From assembly GCF_024979315.1 (NCBI RefSeq), contig NZ_JANLCK010000002.1, positions 372,001 through 436,000 of the forward strand: a stretch of 64,000 nt of DNA, written 5' to 3'. Positions 39,678 through 49,302 of this stretch are shown here, in pieces (position 1 is the stretch's first letter; each line of letters begins with the position of its first letter). Origin of the DNA: Herbiconiux oxytropis (GTDB lineage: Bacteria; Actinomycetota; Actinomycetes; Actinomycetales; Microbacteriaceae). A program made the position numbers and the translations under genes. Under the pieces are notes generated by a model. It saw only the letters and a list, made by a program, of their open reading frames with translations. It did no database searches and was not told the DNA's origin.

Positions 39678-40190
39678 GTGGAGCTCGAGGCCGTCGACGT
39701 GATCGATCGCAAGATCATCGATCAGCTGCGCATCGACGGCCGGCGCTCCTTCGGCCAGATCGCCCGTTACGTGGGGCTCTCCGAGGGCAGCGTGCGCCAG
39801 CGCTACAACCGCTTGCTCGCCCTCGGCGTGGTGCAGGTGGTCGGCATGCCGAACACGCCCAAGCTCGGCTACACCGGCGTGCACCTCTCCATCCGCGTGC
39901 GCGGGGCCACCGTGGAGTCGGTCGCGCGGGCGCTCGCCGCCATGCCCGAGGTGCAGTACGTGGGGGCGTGCATCGGCTCGTTCGACCTCACCGTCGACGT
40001 GCGCTGCGACGGCCCCGACGAGCTCACCGCGTTCCTCGGCGACCGCGTGCGCTCGATCACGGGCATCGACGCGCTCGAGACGGCGACCGTGCTCGAGATC
40101 ATCAAGGACGAGTACGTGTGGTCGGGCTTCCGCGAGCCCACCGGGCGCCCCACCCGCCCGCACCCCTCGGCCGGCATCACCCGCCCCTGA
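39678..40190 (+). CDS. Lrp/AsnC family regulator (first of a convergent pair)
   Basis: A 170-residue regulator with an N-terminal winged helix-turn-helix (D-R-K-I-I-D-Q-L-R-I-D-G-R-R-S-F) and a C-terminal AsnC/RAM ligand domain (G-x-x-D-L-T-V-D-V-R). These proteins sense amino acids or their catabolites and form octamers on DNA. TCTAAT ends six bases before GTG 39678, so the start is probably leaderless. It converges on a second Lrp gene 17 bases away. Confidence 0.92.
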   Translation: MELEAVDVIDRKIIDQLRIDGRRSFGQIARYVGLSEGSVRQRYNRLLALGVVQVVGMPNTPKLGYTGVHLSIRVRGATVESVARALAAMPEVQYVGACIGSFDLTVDVRCDGPDELTAFLGDRVRSITGIDALETATVLEIIKDEYVWSGFREPTGRPTRPHPSAGITRP

Positions 40191-40207
40191 GCCGCTCAGA
40201 TCTCCGT

Positions 40208-40702
40208 CTACTCGATCGAACCAGACCCCGACCCTCCCATCGCGCGCTGCCCCGACTGATCTCGCAGCCCGTTCCACGAGTAGTCCTTGTAGAGCCGCGT
40301 GAGCACGAACTGGTCGATCGTGACGACGCCGGGGGTGCGCCGGATGTCGTCGAGCAGGTCGGCGAGCTGCCCCAGATCGCGCGGCGTCGCCTCGAGGTAG
40401 ATGTCGTGGGCGCCGGCGGTGAGCGCCACGTGCCCGATCATCGGGATCGACGTGAGCGACTTCGCAACGTTCCGCGGGCTGAGCCCCCGCACGGTCAGCA
40501 GCAGCCGCACCGACTGGTGGCCGAGCGTGAGCGGGTTGCAGAGCGCCACGATCCGGAGCGTGCCGTTGACGGTGAGCCTCTGGATGCGCGCCCGCACGGT
40601 GGCCTCTGAGACCCCCACCACGGCGGCGATGTCGGTGTAGGCGCGCCGGCCGTCCTCACCGAGCAGCTCGACGAGGCGACGATCGAGGTCGTCTGCAGCC
40701 AT
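40208..40702 (-). CDS. Lrp/AsnC family regulator (second of a convergent pair)
   Basis: A 164-residue paralogue of the same architecture: N-terminal helix-turn-helix (D-L-D-R-R-L-V-E-L-L-G-E-D-G-R-R-A-Y) and RAM domain (G-A-H-D-I-Y-L-E-A). Sequence identity with the neighbour appears modest, and a Gly-Ser tail follows. The ATG 40702 is preferred over an upstream frame start at 40744. CACAAT lies six bases before the ATG. Adjacent, convergently oriented Lrp pairs suggest cross-talk, which is inference. Confidence 0.92.
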   Translation of the reverse strand: MAADDLDRRLVELLGEDGRRAYTDIAAVVGVSEATVRARIQRLTVNGTLRIVALCNPLTLGHQSVRLLLTVRGLSPRNVAKSLTSIPMIGHVALTAGAHDIYLEATPRDLGQLADLLDDIRRTPGVVTIDQFVLTRLYKDYSWNGLRDQSGQRAMGGSGSGSIE

Positions 40703-40830
40703 GCCCCCATTGTGCCAGTCACCACGACGGGCCCGGCTTGCCAAGGGGGGCGCGGGCGGGAGGGCGGCGGCGTACGGTGGCGAGGGCGTCGGGACCGACC
40801 GGATCCGGCGCGTGAGAAGAGGAGTGCGGC

Positions 40831-43314: not shown

Positions 43315-43782
43315 ATGTCCCAGAACGTCCGCCGCATGGCCTGCACCCCCGAGCAGCTCTTCGAGGTGCTCGCCGACGGGTGGCTCTTCCCCGTCTGGGT
43401 GGTCGGCGCCTCCCGCATGCGCGATGTCGACGAGGAGTGGCCGCGCGAGGGCAGCAAGCTGCACCACTCCTTCGGTGTCTGGCCGATGCTCATCGACGAC
43501 GAGACGACCGTGCTCGAGTGGGATCCGCCCCGGCGGATGGTGATCCAGCCCGCCGGCTGGCCCATCGGCGAGGCCAGGGTCACGGTGGAGGCGAAGCCGT
43601 CGGGCGAGGGTTGCCTCGTGCGCATCCTCGAAGAGGCCGTCAAGGGGCCGGGTTCCCTGATCCCCGAGCCGGTGCTCGATCTGCCCCTGCACATCCGCAA
43701 CATCGAGACCCTGCGCAGACTCGCGTTCGTGGCCGAGGGACGTGCCGCCCACCATGCTCAGGACGGCGCGGACGCCCGCTGA
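43315..43782 (+). CDS. SRPBCC (START-like) family protein
   Basis: A 155-residue SRPBCC protein with the hydrophobic ligand-binding fold: P-E-Q-L-F-E-V-L-A-D-G-W near residue 12 and the long C-terminal helix. Members bind or process hydrophobic small molecules such as polyketides or lipids. GGAG lies five bases before the ATG. It is the third gene of the operon that starts at 40831 (31-base gap). Together the SDR, flavoprotein and SRPBCC protein suggest a small hydrophobic-metabolite pathway. Confidence 0.87.
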   Translation: MSQNVRRMACTPEQLFEVLADGWLFPVWVVGASRMRDVDEEWPREGSKLHHSFGVWPMLIDDETTVLEWDPPRRMVIQPAGWPIGEARVTVEAKPSGEGCLVRILEEAVKGPGSLIPEPVLDLPLHIRNIETLRRLAFVAEGRAAHHAQDGADAR

Positions 43783-43878
43783 GCGCGACCCGGACACAGG
43801 CGAGCGCGAGGCACGCGAGCAGCAAGCGCAGGCCGACTCGAGGCCGAGGGCTACCGCGTGCTCTCGCTCGAGGCCATG

Positions 43879-43907
43879 TTGACATCCTGGACGATCGGGT
43901 GTGTGAT
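43879..43907 (+). promoter_or_regulatory. Near-consensus sigma-A promoter of the 15-aa peptide unit
   Basis: A perfect -35 hexamer TTGACA (43879-43884) is followed after 17 bases by TGTGAT (43902-43907). This is the best -35 match noticed in the window. It fires towards the 15-residue ORF, whose ATG is 27 bases downstream. Confidence 0.75.
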
Positions 43908-43934
43908 GGTGGCTCAACGTCGGAAGGAGTCGAT

Positions 43935-43982
43935 ATGACCGTGCAGATCTCATCGGGTTCGATGAAGAAGGTGCGCCACTAA
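43935..43982 (+). CDS. 15-residue peptide ORF in its own transcription unit
   Basis: The ATG has AAGGAG five bases upstream and the frame is M-T-V-Q-I-S-S-G-S-M-K-K-V-R-H then TAA. A near-consensus promoter lies before it and a strong hairpin 24 bases after the stop, so the whole unit is about 130 bases. The peptide is short, with a hydroxyl-rich middle and a basic end. No signal peptide, Cys or membrane helix is present. It could be a leader peptide for attenuation, a coding small RNA, or a regulatory peptide. I recognise no family. Confidence 0.55.
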   Translation: MTVQISSGSMKKVRH

Positions 43983-44006
43983 GTCGCGCATTTCCAGCTC
44001 GATTCC

Positions 44007-44038
44007 GAACGGCCCCCGCCACCAGGTGGGGGCCGTTC
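44007..44038 (+). terminator. Strong intrinsic terminator after the 15-aa ORF
   Basis: A perfect 11-bp GC-rich stem, GAACGGCCCCC (44007-44017) with GGGGGCCGTTC (44028-44038), has a 10-base loop. It is the strongest simple hairpin noted in the window. There is no long U tract, which is common in high-GC actinobacteria. Confidence 0.85.
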
Positions 44039-44330
44039 CGCGTTCCGCCCTCGAGCGAGGCCTCGGCTTACGTCTGGCCTGAGGGGGGATCCCGGCCTGC
44101 AAGGGTTTGCTCAAGATTGGCGCAGGAAAGCCCATCTCCAGCCGTGTTCCCGGGTGCGGTTGCTACCGTGCAGGACGTCGAGCCCGTGCGACCCCACCCA
44201 CCCCGTACGGGCTCGATGACCCGACCCGCACCATCCGAACCGCCCCCATCCGGCCGCACCCGCGACCGATCCCGAACCGCACCCACGGTTCGACAGGGGG
44301 CCCTTCGGCGTGCTCAGAACCCGAGGAACC
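44039..44330 (+). other. Noncoding leader of the polysaccharide synthase gene
   Basis: These 292 bases lie between the terminator and the synthase ATG and hold no convincing ORF. A 10-bp perfect stem, TCGAGCCCGT (44178-44187) with ACGGGCTCGA (44207-44216), surrounds a 19-base CA-rich loop. The remainder is rich in CCG/CAC triplets. A promoter for the synthase must lie here or the terminator must be read through. No riboswitch class was matched by eye. Confidence 0.45.
44178..44216 (+). promoter_or_regulatory. Stem-loop in the leader of the glycosyltransferase mRNA
   Basis: A 10-bp perfect stem extends to 12 of 13 pairs around a C/A-rich loop. It is 115 bases before the ATG, too far to be a ribosome block, but it could pause or terminate transcription. 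Confidence 0.45.
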
Positions 44331-46709
44331 ATGTCGAAGTCGACCCACGCCCCGAGCGCGCGCCCGCGCCAGTGGGGATCCGAACGCAATCGAACACCCC
44401 TGCCCACCGTGCACACCCGCCCCTCCGACGCGAAGATCCTCTGGGGCCGCATCGCGATCGTCGTGACCATCAGCGCCTGGCTGGTCTACCTCGTCACCAC
44501 GATCCTCCGCCAGTTCCTGGAATACGGGACCGACAACTTCCGGCTCTCCCTCGAGGCCATCTCGTACCTCGTCGTGGTGACCTTCCTCACCTTCTCGGCG
44601 CTGATGTACCTCGTGGCGCGCCAGGGAGCGCTCCGCCGCTTCCGCGACCACGTGCGGGTGCCCCGCGCCGAGCTCGACCGCCACTTCGGCGACCACGCGC
44701 ACGGCGGCATGACCGTGCTCGTGCCCTCCTACGCCGAGGAGCCCGCGGTGGTGCGGAAGACCCTGTGGTCGGCCGCGCTGCAGGAGTACCCCGCCCTCCG
44801 GGTGGTGCTGCTGCTCGACGACCCGCCTCAGCCGAAGGACCCGGCGACCGCCGCCCGACTCGAGGCCACCCGCGCCATCGCCCCGGGCATCGCCGAGGCG
44901 CTCAGCGTGCCGGCCGCGCGGTTCTCGGATGCGCTGCTGAGCTTCGAGCACGAGCTGCTGGCGAGCGGCGTCCCGAGCGCGGATGCGGTGCAACGACTCG
45001 CTCGCGAGTACCGGCACGCGGTGGGCTGGCTGCGCGGCATGGCCGAGGCGGAGGACCACGAGGACCACGTCGACACGTTCTTCATCGAGCAGGTGCTCGG
45101 CGGTCTCGCCGACGACCTCGCGCTCACCGCCGCCGCGCTCGACGCGGCTCTGGACGGCGCCGAGCCCGATTCCCGTTCCGTGATCGCGGCGGAGCGCATG
45201 CTCGAACTGCACCGCCGCCTCGTCTGGATCTTCACGGCCGACACGGCGACCTTCGAGCGCAAGCAGTACGCCTCGCTCTCGCACGAGGCCAACAAGGCCA
45301 TGAACCTCAACTCCTACATCGGCCTGATGGGCGGCCGCTACCGCGAGGAGCACACGCCCGCGGGCGTCATCCTCCGCCCGGTCTCGGGCACGCAGCGCAC
45401 CGACCTCGTGGTGCCGAACGCCGAGTACCTGCTCACGCTCGACGCCGACTCGCTCCTCCTGCGCGACTACTGCCTGCGGCTCGTGCACTTCCTCGAGCAG
45501 CCCGACAACGCGCGCGTGGCCGTCACGCAGACGCCGTACTCGTCGTTCCGCGGTTCGCCGACCCGCATCGAGCGGCTCGCGGGCGCGACCACCGACATCC
45601 AGCACATCCTGCACCAGGGGCTCAGCGAGTACGACGCGACCTTCTGGGTGGGGGCGAACGCCGTCATCCGCATGGAGGCGCTCGACGACATCCTCGAGAT
45701 CGAGACGGTGGGCGGATTCGAGATCCGGCGCTACGTGCAGGACCGCACGGTGATCGAGGACACCGAGTCGAGCGTCGACCTCGGCCAGCACGGCTGGACC
45801 CTCGTGAACTACCCCGAGCGGCTGAGCTACAGCGCCACGCCGCCTGACTTCGGCTCACTCATCGTGCAGCGGCGACGCTGGGCGAACGGCGGCCTGCTCA
45901 TCCTGCCGAAGCTCTTCACGCAGATGCGTGCCCGCAAGCGCGCCGGGCGGCCCGTGCGGCTCACCGAGGCGATGCTGCGCATCAACTACATGGCCTCGAT
46001 CGCGTGGGCGAGCTTCGGACTCGTGTTCCTGCTGGCCTACCCCTACGACAGCAAGCTCCTCAGCCCGCTCGTGCTCGTGGCGGCGCTGCCGTACTTCCTC
46101 GCCCAGGCGAGCGACCTGCGGGCCTGCGGCTACAAGGGGCTCGACATCCTGCGCATCTACGGCTTCAACCTCATCCTGCTCCCCGTCAACCTCGCGGGCG
46201 TGCTCAAGTCGATCGAGCAGTCGCTCACGGGCAAGAAGATCCCGTTCGCCCGCACCCCCAAGGTGCGCGACCGCACCGCAGCGCAGCTGCTCTACGTGGT
46301 GGCGCCCTTCGGCATCGTCGCCTTCTCCGTGCTCACGGTGTGGCGGAACGTCGTCGACCAGAACTGGGGCAACGCGGCCTTCGCGGGCTTCAACGCGATC
46401 ACGGCGATGTGGGCGATCGTCGGCAACATCGGCATCCGCGCGTCGCTCGCCGACACCTGGCTCGGCCTCACCGACTGGATGTGGGTCGACCGCCGCACCC
46501 CGGCCGAGCGTGCCGACGAGCGGGTCGCGGCCACCGGTGCCGGAACCGCCGTCGACGACTTCGACTGGCAGGAGGCGCTCTACAACGGGCACGCCGCCGC
46601 CGGTGAGGAGCTGCACCGTCGGAGCGCCCGGCGCTCACGCGGTGGCCGCCCCGCCACCCGGCGCGCACCGTCGCGGGAGACGGCCTCGAACGGACGGCGA
46701 GCAGCATGA
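44331..46709 (+). CDS. Membrane glycosyltransferase family 2 (cellulose-synthase-like)
   Basis: A 792-residue processive GT2 enzyme. Two N-terminal helices (residues ~40-95) precede the catalytic domain. Conserved points are P-S-Y-A-E-E (~132), L-L-L-D-D, the metal-binding T-L-D-A-D (~380), the acceptor E-D-T (~480) and the Q-R-R-R-W motif (~520) that grips the growing chain. Four or more helices follow, then a basic tail. The enzyme is expected to make and extrude a beta-linked glycan from a UDP-sugar. GAGGAACC precedes the ATG. The next gene overlaps its stop. The sugar is not determined: GH18 and CBM5/12 in the partner hint at GlcNAc-containing glycan. Confidence 0.9.
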   Translation: MSKSTHAPSARPRQWGSERNRTPLPTVHTRPSDAKILWGRIAIVVTISAWLVYLVTTILRQFLEYGTDNFRLSLEAISYLVVVTFLTFSALMYLVARQGALRRFRDHVRVPRAELDRHFGDHAHGGMTVLVPSYAEEPAVVRKTLWSAALQEYPALRVVLLLDDPPQPKDPATAARLEATRAIAPGIAEALSVPAARFSDALLSFEHELLASGVPSADAVQRLAREYRHAVGWLRGMAEAEDHEDHVDTFFIEQVLGGLADDLALTAAALDAALDGAEPDSRSVIAAERMLELHRRLVWIFTADTATFERKQYASLSHEANKAMNLNSYIGLMGGRYREEHTPAGVILRPVSGTQRTDLVVPNAEYLLTLDADSLLLRDYCLRLVHFLEQPDNARVAVTQTPYSSFRGSPTRIERLAGATTDIQHILHQGLSEYDATFWVGANAVIRMEALDDILEIETVGGFEIRRYVQDRTVIEDTESSVDLGQHGWTLVNYPERLSYSATPPDFGSLIVQRRRWANGGLLILPKLFTQMRARKRAGRPVRLTEAMLRINYMASIAWASFGLVFLLAYPYDSKLLSPLVLVAALPYFLAQASDLRACGYKGLDILRIYGFNLILLPVNLAGVLKSIEQSLTGKKIPFARTPKVRDRTAAQLLYVVAPFGIVAFSVLTVWRNVVDQNWGNAAFAGFNAITAMWAIVGNIGIRASLADTWLGLTDWMWVDRRTPAERADERVAATGAGTAVDDFDWQEALYNGHAAAGEELHRRSARRSRGGRPATRRAPSRETASNGRRAA

Positions 46710-48394
46710 GCACCCTGAACCCGTCCTCGTCCCCCGCCCCGGTGCCGGCCGGTCCGCACGCGGGCAAGCGGCTCTCGCCGCTGCGCGTGGCCCTCGGAGT
46801 CGTCGTGGTGCTCGGCGTGGTCGCCGCGGGACTGTTCGGTTTCCGCGTCTTCGTGGTCGATCAGGCCCGGGCCGACGGCCTCGCGCCGTGGTTCGCCTCC
46901 TACGTCGATGCGACCGTCACACCGTCGTTCCCGTTCGAGACGCCGCCGACGGATGCGCAGCGCGACGTCGTGCTGTCGTTCGTCGTGGCGGCATCCGGCC
47001 CCCTGAGCGGGAGCCCGGGCGAGCAGGACGGATCGAGCAGCGCCGACGCTCCCACCGGGGCCGCCGCGGATCCGGCGAGCGGTTCGTGCACGCCCAGCTG
47101 GGGCACGGCCTACTCCCTCGACGGAGCCGCGCAGTCGCTCGACCTCGATCGCCGGATCGCGCGCCTTCGCCAGCAGGGCGGAGACGTCATGGTGTCGTTC
47201 GGCGGGGCGAACAACTCCGAACTCGCCACGGCGTGCACGGATCCCGAGGCGCTGAAGGACGCCTACGAGGCCGTCGTCGACCGCTACGACCTCTCGACGA
47301 TCGACCTCGACATCGAGGGCGGCAACCTCACCGACGCCGCCGCCGGCCAGCGGCGCGCCGAGGCGGTGGCCGCCCTGCAGACCGAGCGGCGCGCGGCCGG
47401 CCATGACCTCGCCGTGTGGCTGACCCTCCCGATCGGCCCGAGCGGCCTGCTCGAGGACGGCACCGATGCGGTGGCGCAGATGCTCGACGCGGGGGTGGAC
47501 CTCGCGGGCGTGAACGCCATGACGATGGACTACGGCGTGGACCTCGACGGAGCCTCTCTCGGCCGCAGCTCGATCGACTCCCTCAACGGGCTGCACCGCC
47601 AGCTCGGCGCCCTCTACTCCGCGGCGGGCATCGAGCTGACGGATGCGACGCTGTGGTCGAAGATCGGGGCGACCCCCATGATCGGCCAGAACGACGTGCC
47701 CGCCGAGGTGTTCTCGCTCGCCGATGCGCAGACCCTCAGCACCTTCGCCCAGGACAAGCAGCTCGGCCGGCTGTCGATGTGGTCGCTCAACCGCGACGCG
47801 ACGTGCGGCCCGAACTACGTGGACACGCGTGTGGTGTCGAACGCGTGCAGCGGTGTCGATCAGGGCGACGCGAGCTTCGCCGGGGTGCTCGCACAGGGCT
47901 TCGGCGGCAGCCCGGATGCGGCGGCCGACACGGTCACCACCCCCGAGCCCACGACGCCCGTCGTGGACGACCCCGCCACGAGCCCGTACCCGATCTGGTC
48001 CGAGTCGACCTCGTACCTCGCGGGTGCCAAGGTGGTGCTGCACGGCAACGTCTACGCGGCCAAGTGGTGGACCCGCGGCGACACCCCCGACGACCCGGTG
48101 CTCAACGACTTCGAGACGCCGTGGACGCTCGTGGGCCCCGTGCTCCCGGGGGAGAAGCCGTTCGCGCTGCCGTCGCTCCCCGAGGGCACGTTCCCGACCT
48201 GGACGGGCGCCGCCATCTACGAGAAGGGCGACCGCGTGCTCTTCGAGGGCACGCCGTACGAGGCCAAGTGGTGGACGCAGGGCGACAGCCCCGCGGCCTC
48301 CTCGGCCGACACCGACGGCTCGCCCTGGGTGCCGCTCACCGAGTCGGAGATGGCGGAGCTCACCGCTCCGCAGCAGTCGCGACCGGGAGGGTGA
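46706..48394 (+). CDS. Membrane-anchored GH18 glycosidase with two CBM5/12 modules
   Basis: A 562-residue protein. An uncleaved or signal helix (residues ~28-50) is followed by a GH18 domain (~55-410) with the catalytic motif D-L-D-I-E (Asp190, Asp192, Glu194). The linker is rich in Thr, Pro and Asp. Two chitin-binding CBM5/12 modules follow, each with the aromatic Y-P-I-W/F-P-T-W start and the A-K-W-W-T-x-G-D motif. GH18 enzymes cleave GlcNAc-beta-1,4 bonds by substrate-assisted catalysis. The ATG overlaps the synthase stop (ATGA), so the enzyme is made with the synthase and may trim or release its product. The distal end overlaps the broken kinase gene by 35 bases. Confidence 0.9.
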   Translation: MSTLNPSSSPAPVPAGPHAGKRLSPLRVALGVVVVLGVVAAGLFGFRVFVVDQARADGLAPWFASYVDATVTPSFPFETPPTDAQRDVVLSFVVAASGPLSGSPGEQDGSSSADAPTGAAADPASGSCTPSWGTAYSLDGAAQSLDLDRRIARLRQQGGDVMVSFGGANNSELATACTDPEALKDAYEAVVDRYDLSTIDLDIEGGNLTDAAAGQRRAEAVAALQTERRAAGHDLAVWLTLPIGPSGLLEDGTDAVAQMLDAGVDLAGVNAMTMDYGVDLDGASLGRSSIDSLNGLHRQLGALYSAAGIELTDATLWSKIGATPMIGQNDVPAEVFSLADAQTLSTFAQDKQLGRLSMWSLNRDATCGPNYVDTRVVSNACSGVDQGDASFAGVLAQGFGGSPDAAADTVTTPEPTTPVVDDPATSPYPIWSESTSYLAGAKVVLHGNVYAAKWWTRGDTPDDPVLNDFETPWTLVGPVLPGEKPFALPSLPEGTFPTWTGAAIYEKGDRVLFEGTPYEAKWWTQGDSPAASSADTDGSPWVPLTESEMAELTAPQQSRPGG

Positions 48395-49302
48395 CGGTGG
48401 CGCGGAGGCCGCCGCCCTCCCGCGCCGCGAGCTCGAGCGTGCCGCCGTGCGCGTCGGCGATGCGCTGCACGAGCGCGAGACCGAGGCCCACCCCCGCGCC
48501 GTGGGGCGAACGGATGCGCGCGGTGCCGCGCTGGAACGGCTCGGTGAGCGTGGCGATCAGCGAGGGCGCGAGCTCCTCGCCCGTGTTCTCCACCGACAGC
48601 ACGGCGGCGCCGGGCAGGCCGGCGCTGCCGGGCGTCGCGCTGGTGACCACGCGCACCCAGCCGCCTGGCCCGGAGTTGTGCAGCACGGCGTTCTGCACGA
48701 GATTGGTCGCGAGCTGCTGCAGCAGCGTGGGCGAGCCGAGAGCCACGGCCGCGTCCCCCCGCACCGACACCGCCACCGACTGCACCGCGGCGACCGGATG
48801 CAGGGTCTCGGCGGCCTCCTCCGCGATGAGCGACAGGTCGACGGCCTCCCGGGTGAACGCGCGCTGATCGGCGCGACTGAGCGCGAGCAGCGCCTCGGTG
48901 AGGTCGATGGCCCGCGCGTTGACCACCTGAAGCCGGTCGAGCAGCTCGTCCGGCTCGCGGCCGGGATCGGCGCGCGCGACCTCCAGCAGGGTCTGCGTGA
49001 TGGCGAGGGGGGTGCGCAGCTCGTGCGAGCGGGGCGAGCATGCGACCGGCGAGGAGCCACCCGCCGAGGAGCCCGAGCGCCAGCAGCGCGACGAGCACCA
49101 CCAGGGCCGCGGGTGCGAAGGCTCTGAGGAGGTCGCTGCGGTTGGGCACGAAGGGACCGAACGTCGTGATGGGGCCGTCGGGCACGTAGCGCAGCAGGAA
49201 CAGCCACACGGCGCCGAGCAGCAGCACCCCGGCCGCGAGCAGGAAACCGGCATAGCTCAGGGTGAGCTGCCACCGGGCGCTCAGCCCGCGCGACCTAGCC
49301 AT
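48360..49302 (-). pseudogene. Sensor histidine kinase broken by an internal deletion and frameshift
   Basis: The frame from ATG 49302 gives a sound N-terminus: M-A-R-S-R-G-L-S-A-R-W start, two helices and G-R-M-L-A-P-L-A-R, the entry to a HAMP domain. It then runs out of phase near 49030. The rest of a normal kinase continues in another frame with S-H-E-L-R-T-P-L-A (H-box), N-L-V-Q-N-A-V (N-box) and G-A-G-V-G-L-G-L (G-box) to the stop at 48360. The HAMP region of roughly 50 codons is missing between them. CTCGC occurs at the join, compatible with deletion between short repeats. The gene overlaps the intact regulator by eight bases. An assembly error is the alternative. Confidence 0.75.

Follow-up and report, generated by a model that had tools for sequence, protein, structure and literature searches.

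The window, a stretch of 64,000 nucleotides from Herbiconiux oxytropis, contains a compact unit in which a promoter-like site, a ribosome-binding site, a 15-codon reading frame and a hairpin follow one another on the forward strand (Table 1). A sequence-only reading had singled it out as an isolated transcription unit, and the promoter, Shine-Dalgarno (SD) sequence, 15-codon frame and hairpin that it named were all found in place. The hairpin is also, as that reading held, the strongest in the window, though narrowly: when 36-nt folds were computed over the whole window it reached -32.0 kcal/mol, and the runner-up, at position 48599, reached -31.9 kcal/mol. A scan for strict consensus elements reported neither the window promoter nor the window terminator, since the -10 element has no A at its second position and the terminator has a poor U-tract. 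Under a looser σ70 score the promoter obtained 10 of 12; a score of at least 10 was seen in 0.06% of shuffled upstream sequences and in 0.03% of random 90-mers taken from the loci. A 200-amino-acid open reading frame (43380-43982), which has the same 15 residues at its C-terminus, was regarded as a long frame that arose by chance in GC-rich DNA.

Table 1. Features of the unit, in window coordinates.
Feature	Position	Strand	Basis or details
σ70-like promoter TTGACA-N17-TGTGAT	43879..43907	+	position check, score 10/12; -35 TTGACA 43879-43884, spacer 17 bases, -10 TGTGAT 43902-43907
Shine-Dalgarno AAGGAG (43924-43929), spacer and ATG (43935)	43924..43937	+	
15-codon frame, very probable remnant of type B bL36 (rpmJ), peptide MTVQISSGSMKKVRH	43935..43982	+	stop TAA 43980-43982
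P1 5' arm (U CGGGUU, then GA), codons 7-10	43953..43962	+	RNAalifold, pair tables
P2 5' arm GGUGC, codons 12-14	43970..43974	+	RNAalifold, pair tables
Conserved 3' element GCAUUUCCAGCUCGA	43988..44002	+	P2 3' arm 43988-43992; P1 3' arm 43993-43994 and 43996-44002
Terminator-like hairpin, 13 pairs, loop ACCA	44008..44037	+	most stable 36-nt fold in window
Possible alternative helix P0, arm GGAGUCGA	43926..43933	+	pairs SD with UCGAUUCC at 43999-44006; hypothetical

Further downstream, positions 44331-48394 hold a group 2 glycosyltransferase gene whose end overlaps with the gene that comes next; the latter encodes a protein resembling glycoside hydrolase 18 and carrying two CBM5/12 modules. The two may form a synthase-hydrolase pair serving a surface polysaccharide. 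Upstream, at 39678-40744, a pair of Lrp/AsnC-type regulators, encoded on opposite strands and adjoining end to end, precedes an SDR and an FAD oxidoreductase gene.

To follow the unit in other genomes, patterns and a covariance model were used. A gapped pattern derived from the unit matched 11 contig records, 7 from Herbiconiux and 4 from unrelated genera; the latter were taken as chance. The 3' element alone, with at most one mismatch, matched 46 of 398 genomes; 7 belong to Herbiconiux, and the 39 matches outside the genus were also attributed to chance. The unit is present in 15 of 16 Herbiconiux genomes (the window genome, G000, and 15 congeners), far above chance. The covariance model found no unit in the remaining genome, G010, whose pattern match (L016) was regarded as chance and dropped from the alignment. 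Copies of at least 90 bits occurred in Herbiconiux and in three further genera of Microbacteriaceae, designated g77, g68 and g78: 5 of 8 g77 genomes, 5 of 9 g68 genomes, and 5 of 41 g78 genomes in one sample, plus G289 from another search. Among 396 genomes drawn from the order, G000 alone gave a match at E <= 1e-5. Matches of 50 bits or less were left out of the final set; those inspected, L192 and L193 among them, were other zinc-free bL36 genes. The resulting 31 strong copies comprise 18 complete bL36 frames (4 in Herbiconiux, 5 in g77, 3 in g68 and 6 in g78) and 13 short frames, the window's among them.

The genes around the unit vary. In 9 of the 15 Herbiconiux copies it lies between a phosphoketolase gene and a DUF3151 gene, and in G003, G004 and G012 it is placed after DUF3151. 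In G000 and G014 the phosphoketolase gene directly abuts DUF3151 with no unit between them, the unit being on another contig, and in G013 the unit and DUF3151 are on different contigs. Conservation in 15 of 16 Herbiconiux genomes, though neighbours differ, supports the reading of the unit as a self-contained transcription unit. Its surroundings in g77 differ again from those in Herbiconiux; about 800 bases upstream of the g77 unit (L149-L153) are a tRNA gene and a gene for an ANTAR-domain response regulator, both read from L149 and not conserved in Herbiconiux.

The origin of the reading frame, absent from the sequence-only reading, became apparent from the full-length copies. In four genomes (G001, G002, G005 and G008), the SD and start codon of the unit's locus lead into a full 40-codon gene for zinc-free bL36 (an rpmJ paralogue, PF00444), with the sequence MKVRNSLGSMKKMQGSQ in the first three and MKVRNSLSSMKKMQGSQ in G008; complete bL36 frames also stand at the unit's locus in g77, g68 and g78. 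Full-length copies match PF00444 and share the SD, start codon and codons with the unit, and the window peptide, MTVQISSGSMKKVRH, aligns with the start of the four Herbiconiux proteins. The window frame differs from them in having 15 codons and no PF00444 match, and thus lacks the complete Ribosomal_L36 domain of a type B bL36; in G000, PF00444 matches just one protein, a bL36 with cysteines that is encoded on a different contig (C1). Full and short copies can be treated as one locus because both sit between the phosphoketolase and DUF3151 genes. On this comparison, we conclude that the unit almost certainly descends from a bL36 gene.

The 13 short frames are not alike. Eleven are from Herbiconiux; the others are those of G346, which ends after 29 codons at a single-base stop that could be an assembly error, and of G394, which has 9 codons and comes from an assembly of 68% completeness, where it lies close to a contig end. 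In G003, G004 and G012 the frame stops as MKVQNS, ahead of the helix described below. In G394 it reads MKVEIHRVR, and a different frame runs over the helix. All four retain the pairing. The losses in g68 are independent of that in Herbiconiux, since g68 also has intact copies. A midpoint-rooted tree of a single gene, DUF3151, grouped the 11 short Herbiconiux copies with support of 86/96 when 16 rows were used, and separated full from short copies weakly (56/32) with 11 rows; the result is consistent with one loss event in Herbiconiux.

In all 31 copies, the SD and AUG are followed by a helix between bL36 codons 7-14 and an element in the 3' UTR (GCAUUUCCAG in most copies), and then by the terminator. 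The helix, consisting of stems P1 and P2, was proposed by RNAalifold from eight short sequences aligned without structure, and all 18 full-length copies can form the same pairing, with the rest of the frame closed into a loop. In a 20-sequence MAFFT alignment, 98.9% of P1/P2 cells were paired, compared to 29-48% when the arms were slid, and the covariation score was 0.286 versus 0.181 +/- 0.015 for shuffled alignments, none of 500 shuffles reaching the observed score. Pairs with double-sided changes were not in excess in this unfitted alignment (2 versus a shuffle mean of 1.4; 244/500). Among the 31 sequences, whose alignment was fitted to the covariance model, double-sided changes were found in 5 of 14 pairs, and the variable pairs included UA/CG/AU/UG, GC/GU/AU, CG/AU and UA/CG. 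The shuffle nulls ignore phylogeny, and kinship of sequences can push covariation above shuffles without structure. The terminator covaries strongly: over 20 sequences, pairing holds in 99.2% of its cells, and double-sided changes affect 7 of its 13 pairs. Without the terminator, the folds of 7 sequences were little or no more stable than those of shuffles (z from -0.05 to -2.14); only 5 of 20 sequences combined P1 with P2 in their minimum-energy fold, and mispairs occur in P1 of G013 and in P2 of G015 and G011. The minimum-energy fold of the window's copy contains P0 instead, which pairs the SD with UCGAUUCC and excludes P1. P0 is open to several Herbiconiux short forms and is treated as hypothetical because no covariation supports it. 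The case for a conserved helix rests on several lines of comparative evidence taken together.

Full and short copies differ in their promoters. A σH/R-like motif, GGAA[TG]-N17/18-GTT, which has a shuffle rate of 1.4%, was found 51-56 bases upstream of the start codon in 18 of 18 full copies (L143-L146, L149-L153, L178, L186, L187, L189, L190, L200-L203). It was also found in 3 of the 13 short copies (G003, G004 and G012) and is gone from the other 10; ahead of the window unit, the σH/R regulon motif GGAAT-N17-19-GTT was not found. G014, G013 and G009 share the promoter architecture of the window unit, with the -10 element TGTGAT, and G006, G015 and G011 have the same architecture in the form TTTACA-N17-TTGAAT. 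Seven of the 8 Herbiconiux short forms without the σH motif score 9-10 of 12 for σ70 (the shuffle rate for at least 9 is 0.8%), and full-length G002 also scores 9. G015 and G011 (L147, L148) carry additional sequence, which includes an inverted repeat (CCACCTCNTCGGTGG), after the promoter-like site and ahead of the SD.

To determine which parts of the unit are maintained, six short lineages of Herbiconiux were compared. From the SD to the AUG (ATGA) their sequences were 91% identical on average; the 5' arm of P1 reached 83%, that of P2 89% and the 3' element 91%, while the bulge (71%), codons 2-6 (53%) and the linker (37%) were more variable; these stretches are short. Fourfold-degenerate sites of DUF3151, used as a benchmark in the same comparison, were 64% identical. 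All 13 short forms keep P1 at a distance of 18-20 nt from the AUG. Synonymous fixation in the 18 full genes was 0.912 over codons 8-14, a value based on 5 countable codons only, versus 0.642 over codons 15-40; in 38 other zinc-free (type B) bL36 genes the corresponding values were 0.716 and 0.645. The 3' element lies downstream of 18 of 18 full genes of the unit's type and of 0 of the 38 others. It was proposed earlier to weigh conserved codons against conserved RNA pairs: the helix pairs are retained and the peptide frame is not. We consider it likely, on these comparisons, that selection acts on the RNA rather than on the peptide.

The explanation that we favour, with modest confidence, is that the unit is a structured small RNA derived from the mRNA of zinc-free bL36, the coding part having been lost. 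Descent from bL36, conservation of the helix and loss of the peptide are what the comparison shows. The ancestral bL36 gene, intact in 18 of the 31 copies, would have had a σH-type stress promoter and an RNA-level helix in its mRNA that pairs codons 7-14 with a 3'-UTR element immediately before the terminator. In Herbiconiux and, independently, in g68, the coding part would have been discarded and the mRNA ends and helix retained; in the window's clade, the RNA would have come to lie in new surroundings behind a housekeeping-like promoter. If the unit is transcribed and a target exists, the RNA, with the P1/P2 stem beside the terminator as its core, would now act in trans without a peptide; it would be a short regulatory RNA, either non-coding or engaged by ribosomes. 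Such action in trans is suggested tentatively, as something that may well not be the case. The RNA probably still meets ribosomes, because the SD, the AUG and the AUG-to-P1 distance are retained. A dual-function small RNA was among the roles first proposed for the unit, and a small RNA, possibly once dual-function, is the one for which comparative evidence argues.

A fuller version of this explanation can be offered, though we would stop short of calling it probable. The ends of a ribosomal-protein mRNA would carry an RNA function of their own, and the coding middle would have been discarded independently in two genera. The stand-alone RNA gene would then have changed place and swapped a stress promoter for a constitutive one. 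Since the 3' element of the short forms can pair either with codons 7-10 or with the SD, the product may be a two-state RNA controlling its own ribosome binding.

It is unlikely that the unit is a decaying relic. On that reading bL36 is no longer needed, and the ends survive only for want of time to erode or because neighbouring genes profit from the terminator. Decay would fit a frame broken in 13 of 31 copies, a σH motif gone from 10 of 13 short copies, and a genome, G010, without any unit. However, the SD, the helix arms and the 3' element (83-91%) lie above the fourfold sites of DUF3151 (64%), pairing survives double-sided changes, and the unit was retained despite altered surroundings. 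Somewhat more doubtful still is the explanation that the helix is a cis-acting device of bL36 mRNA, serving stability, termination or translational control, possibly bL36 autoregulation, with the short copies as side products in which the helix is still a decoy, sensor or stabiliser. The closing of the whole frame by the helix in all 18 full copies, the restriction of the 3' element to the unit's type of bL36 and the synonymous constraint in codons 8-14 all agree with such a device, but alone it leaves 13 helix-bearing copies without a complete bL36 frame unexplained.

A small regulatory peptide, another of the early proposals, is very improbable. While an SD and AUG are present in 31 of 31 copies and SGS[MI][KQ][KQ]V is common to 8 of the 11 Herbiconiux short forms, it is the helix arms and bulge that encode these common residues, the amino acids vary (codons 2-6 are the 53% stretch), and where relatives keep the nucleotides the frame is broken or shifted, leaving only MKVQNS or MKVEIHRVR. 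The last proposal, an attenuation leader for the polysaccharide synthase downstream, can be dismissed: the window glycosyltransferase frame does start about 375 bases past the unit's start codon, but the unit has its own terminator-like hairpin and no fixed position before a regulated gene, the downstream genes varying from DUF3151 in 9 of 15 Herbiconiux copies to another context in g77, and in G014 another gene separates it from the glycosyltransferase.

The nearest precedent for the unit is SgrS without sgrT in Yersinia (PMC4021124). As in the SgrS/SgrT system outlined there, the frame lies near the 5' end of the RNA, a conserved RNA sequence precedes the terminator, and the frame is lost in some species; a conserved structured or pairing RNA beside the frame is likewise found here, with helix and terminator in 31 copies and a complete frame in 18. 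Unlike SgrT, the unit's frame is that of a ribosomal protein, and the conserved helix lies partly inside codons; no relation by descent is suggested. A relaxed-threshold Rfam scan of window positions 43700-44350 revealed no family at its gathering cut-off, the actinobacterial 6C RNA (RF01066; 24.2 bits versus a cut-off of 47) and Scr3920 (RF02828; 15.6 bits versus 88) overlapping weakly, and no family was found over the unit in 7 relatives scanned at gathering scores. Literature searches on small RNAs of Herbiconiux, on L36 with small RNAs or 3' UTRs, and on structured RNAs of Microbacteriaceae showed nothing on the unit among the matches listed. Small RNAs with or without a reading frame are known, and what would be unusual here is the origin from a ribosomal-protein mRNA. 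The birth of bacterial small RNAs is seldom seen directly. In this family, one and the same ribosomal-protein gene appears in intact, nonsense, frameshifted and deleted forms, with the RNA ends kept throughout, and the conversion of an mRNA to a non-coding RNA therefore becomes testable.

The promoters of the full copies point to a σH-type (thiol-stress) route for zinc-free bL36, alongside the Zur route. The GGAA-GTT motif agrees with the σH consensus given for Corynebacterium (PMC10012870). A rough pattern for Zur-like sites matched 0 of 31 copies, whereas the other type B bL36 genes of the family had mostly Zur-like sites (32 of 42 entries, versus 7 of 42 with a σH-like motif, some loci being counted twice). 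Zinc-bearing bL36 is reported to be oxidised under hypochlorite in Mycobacterium smegmatis (PMC5430705), and a cysteine-free bL36 spare induced by thiol stress is therefore plausible. One type B bL36 gene of g68 (L192, in G145) has the σH-like motif and lacks the 3' element; it may show what preceded the rise of the RNA element or what followed its loss.
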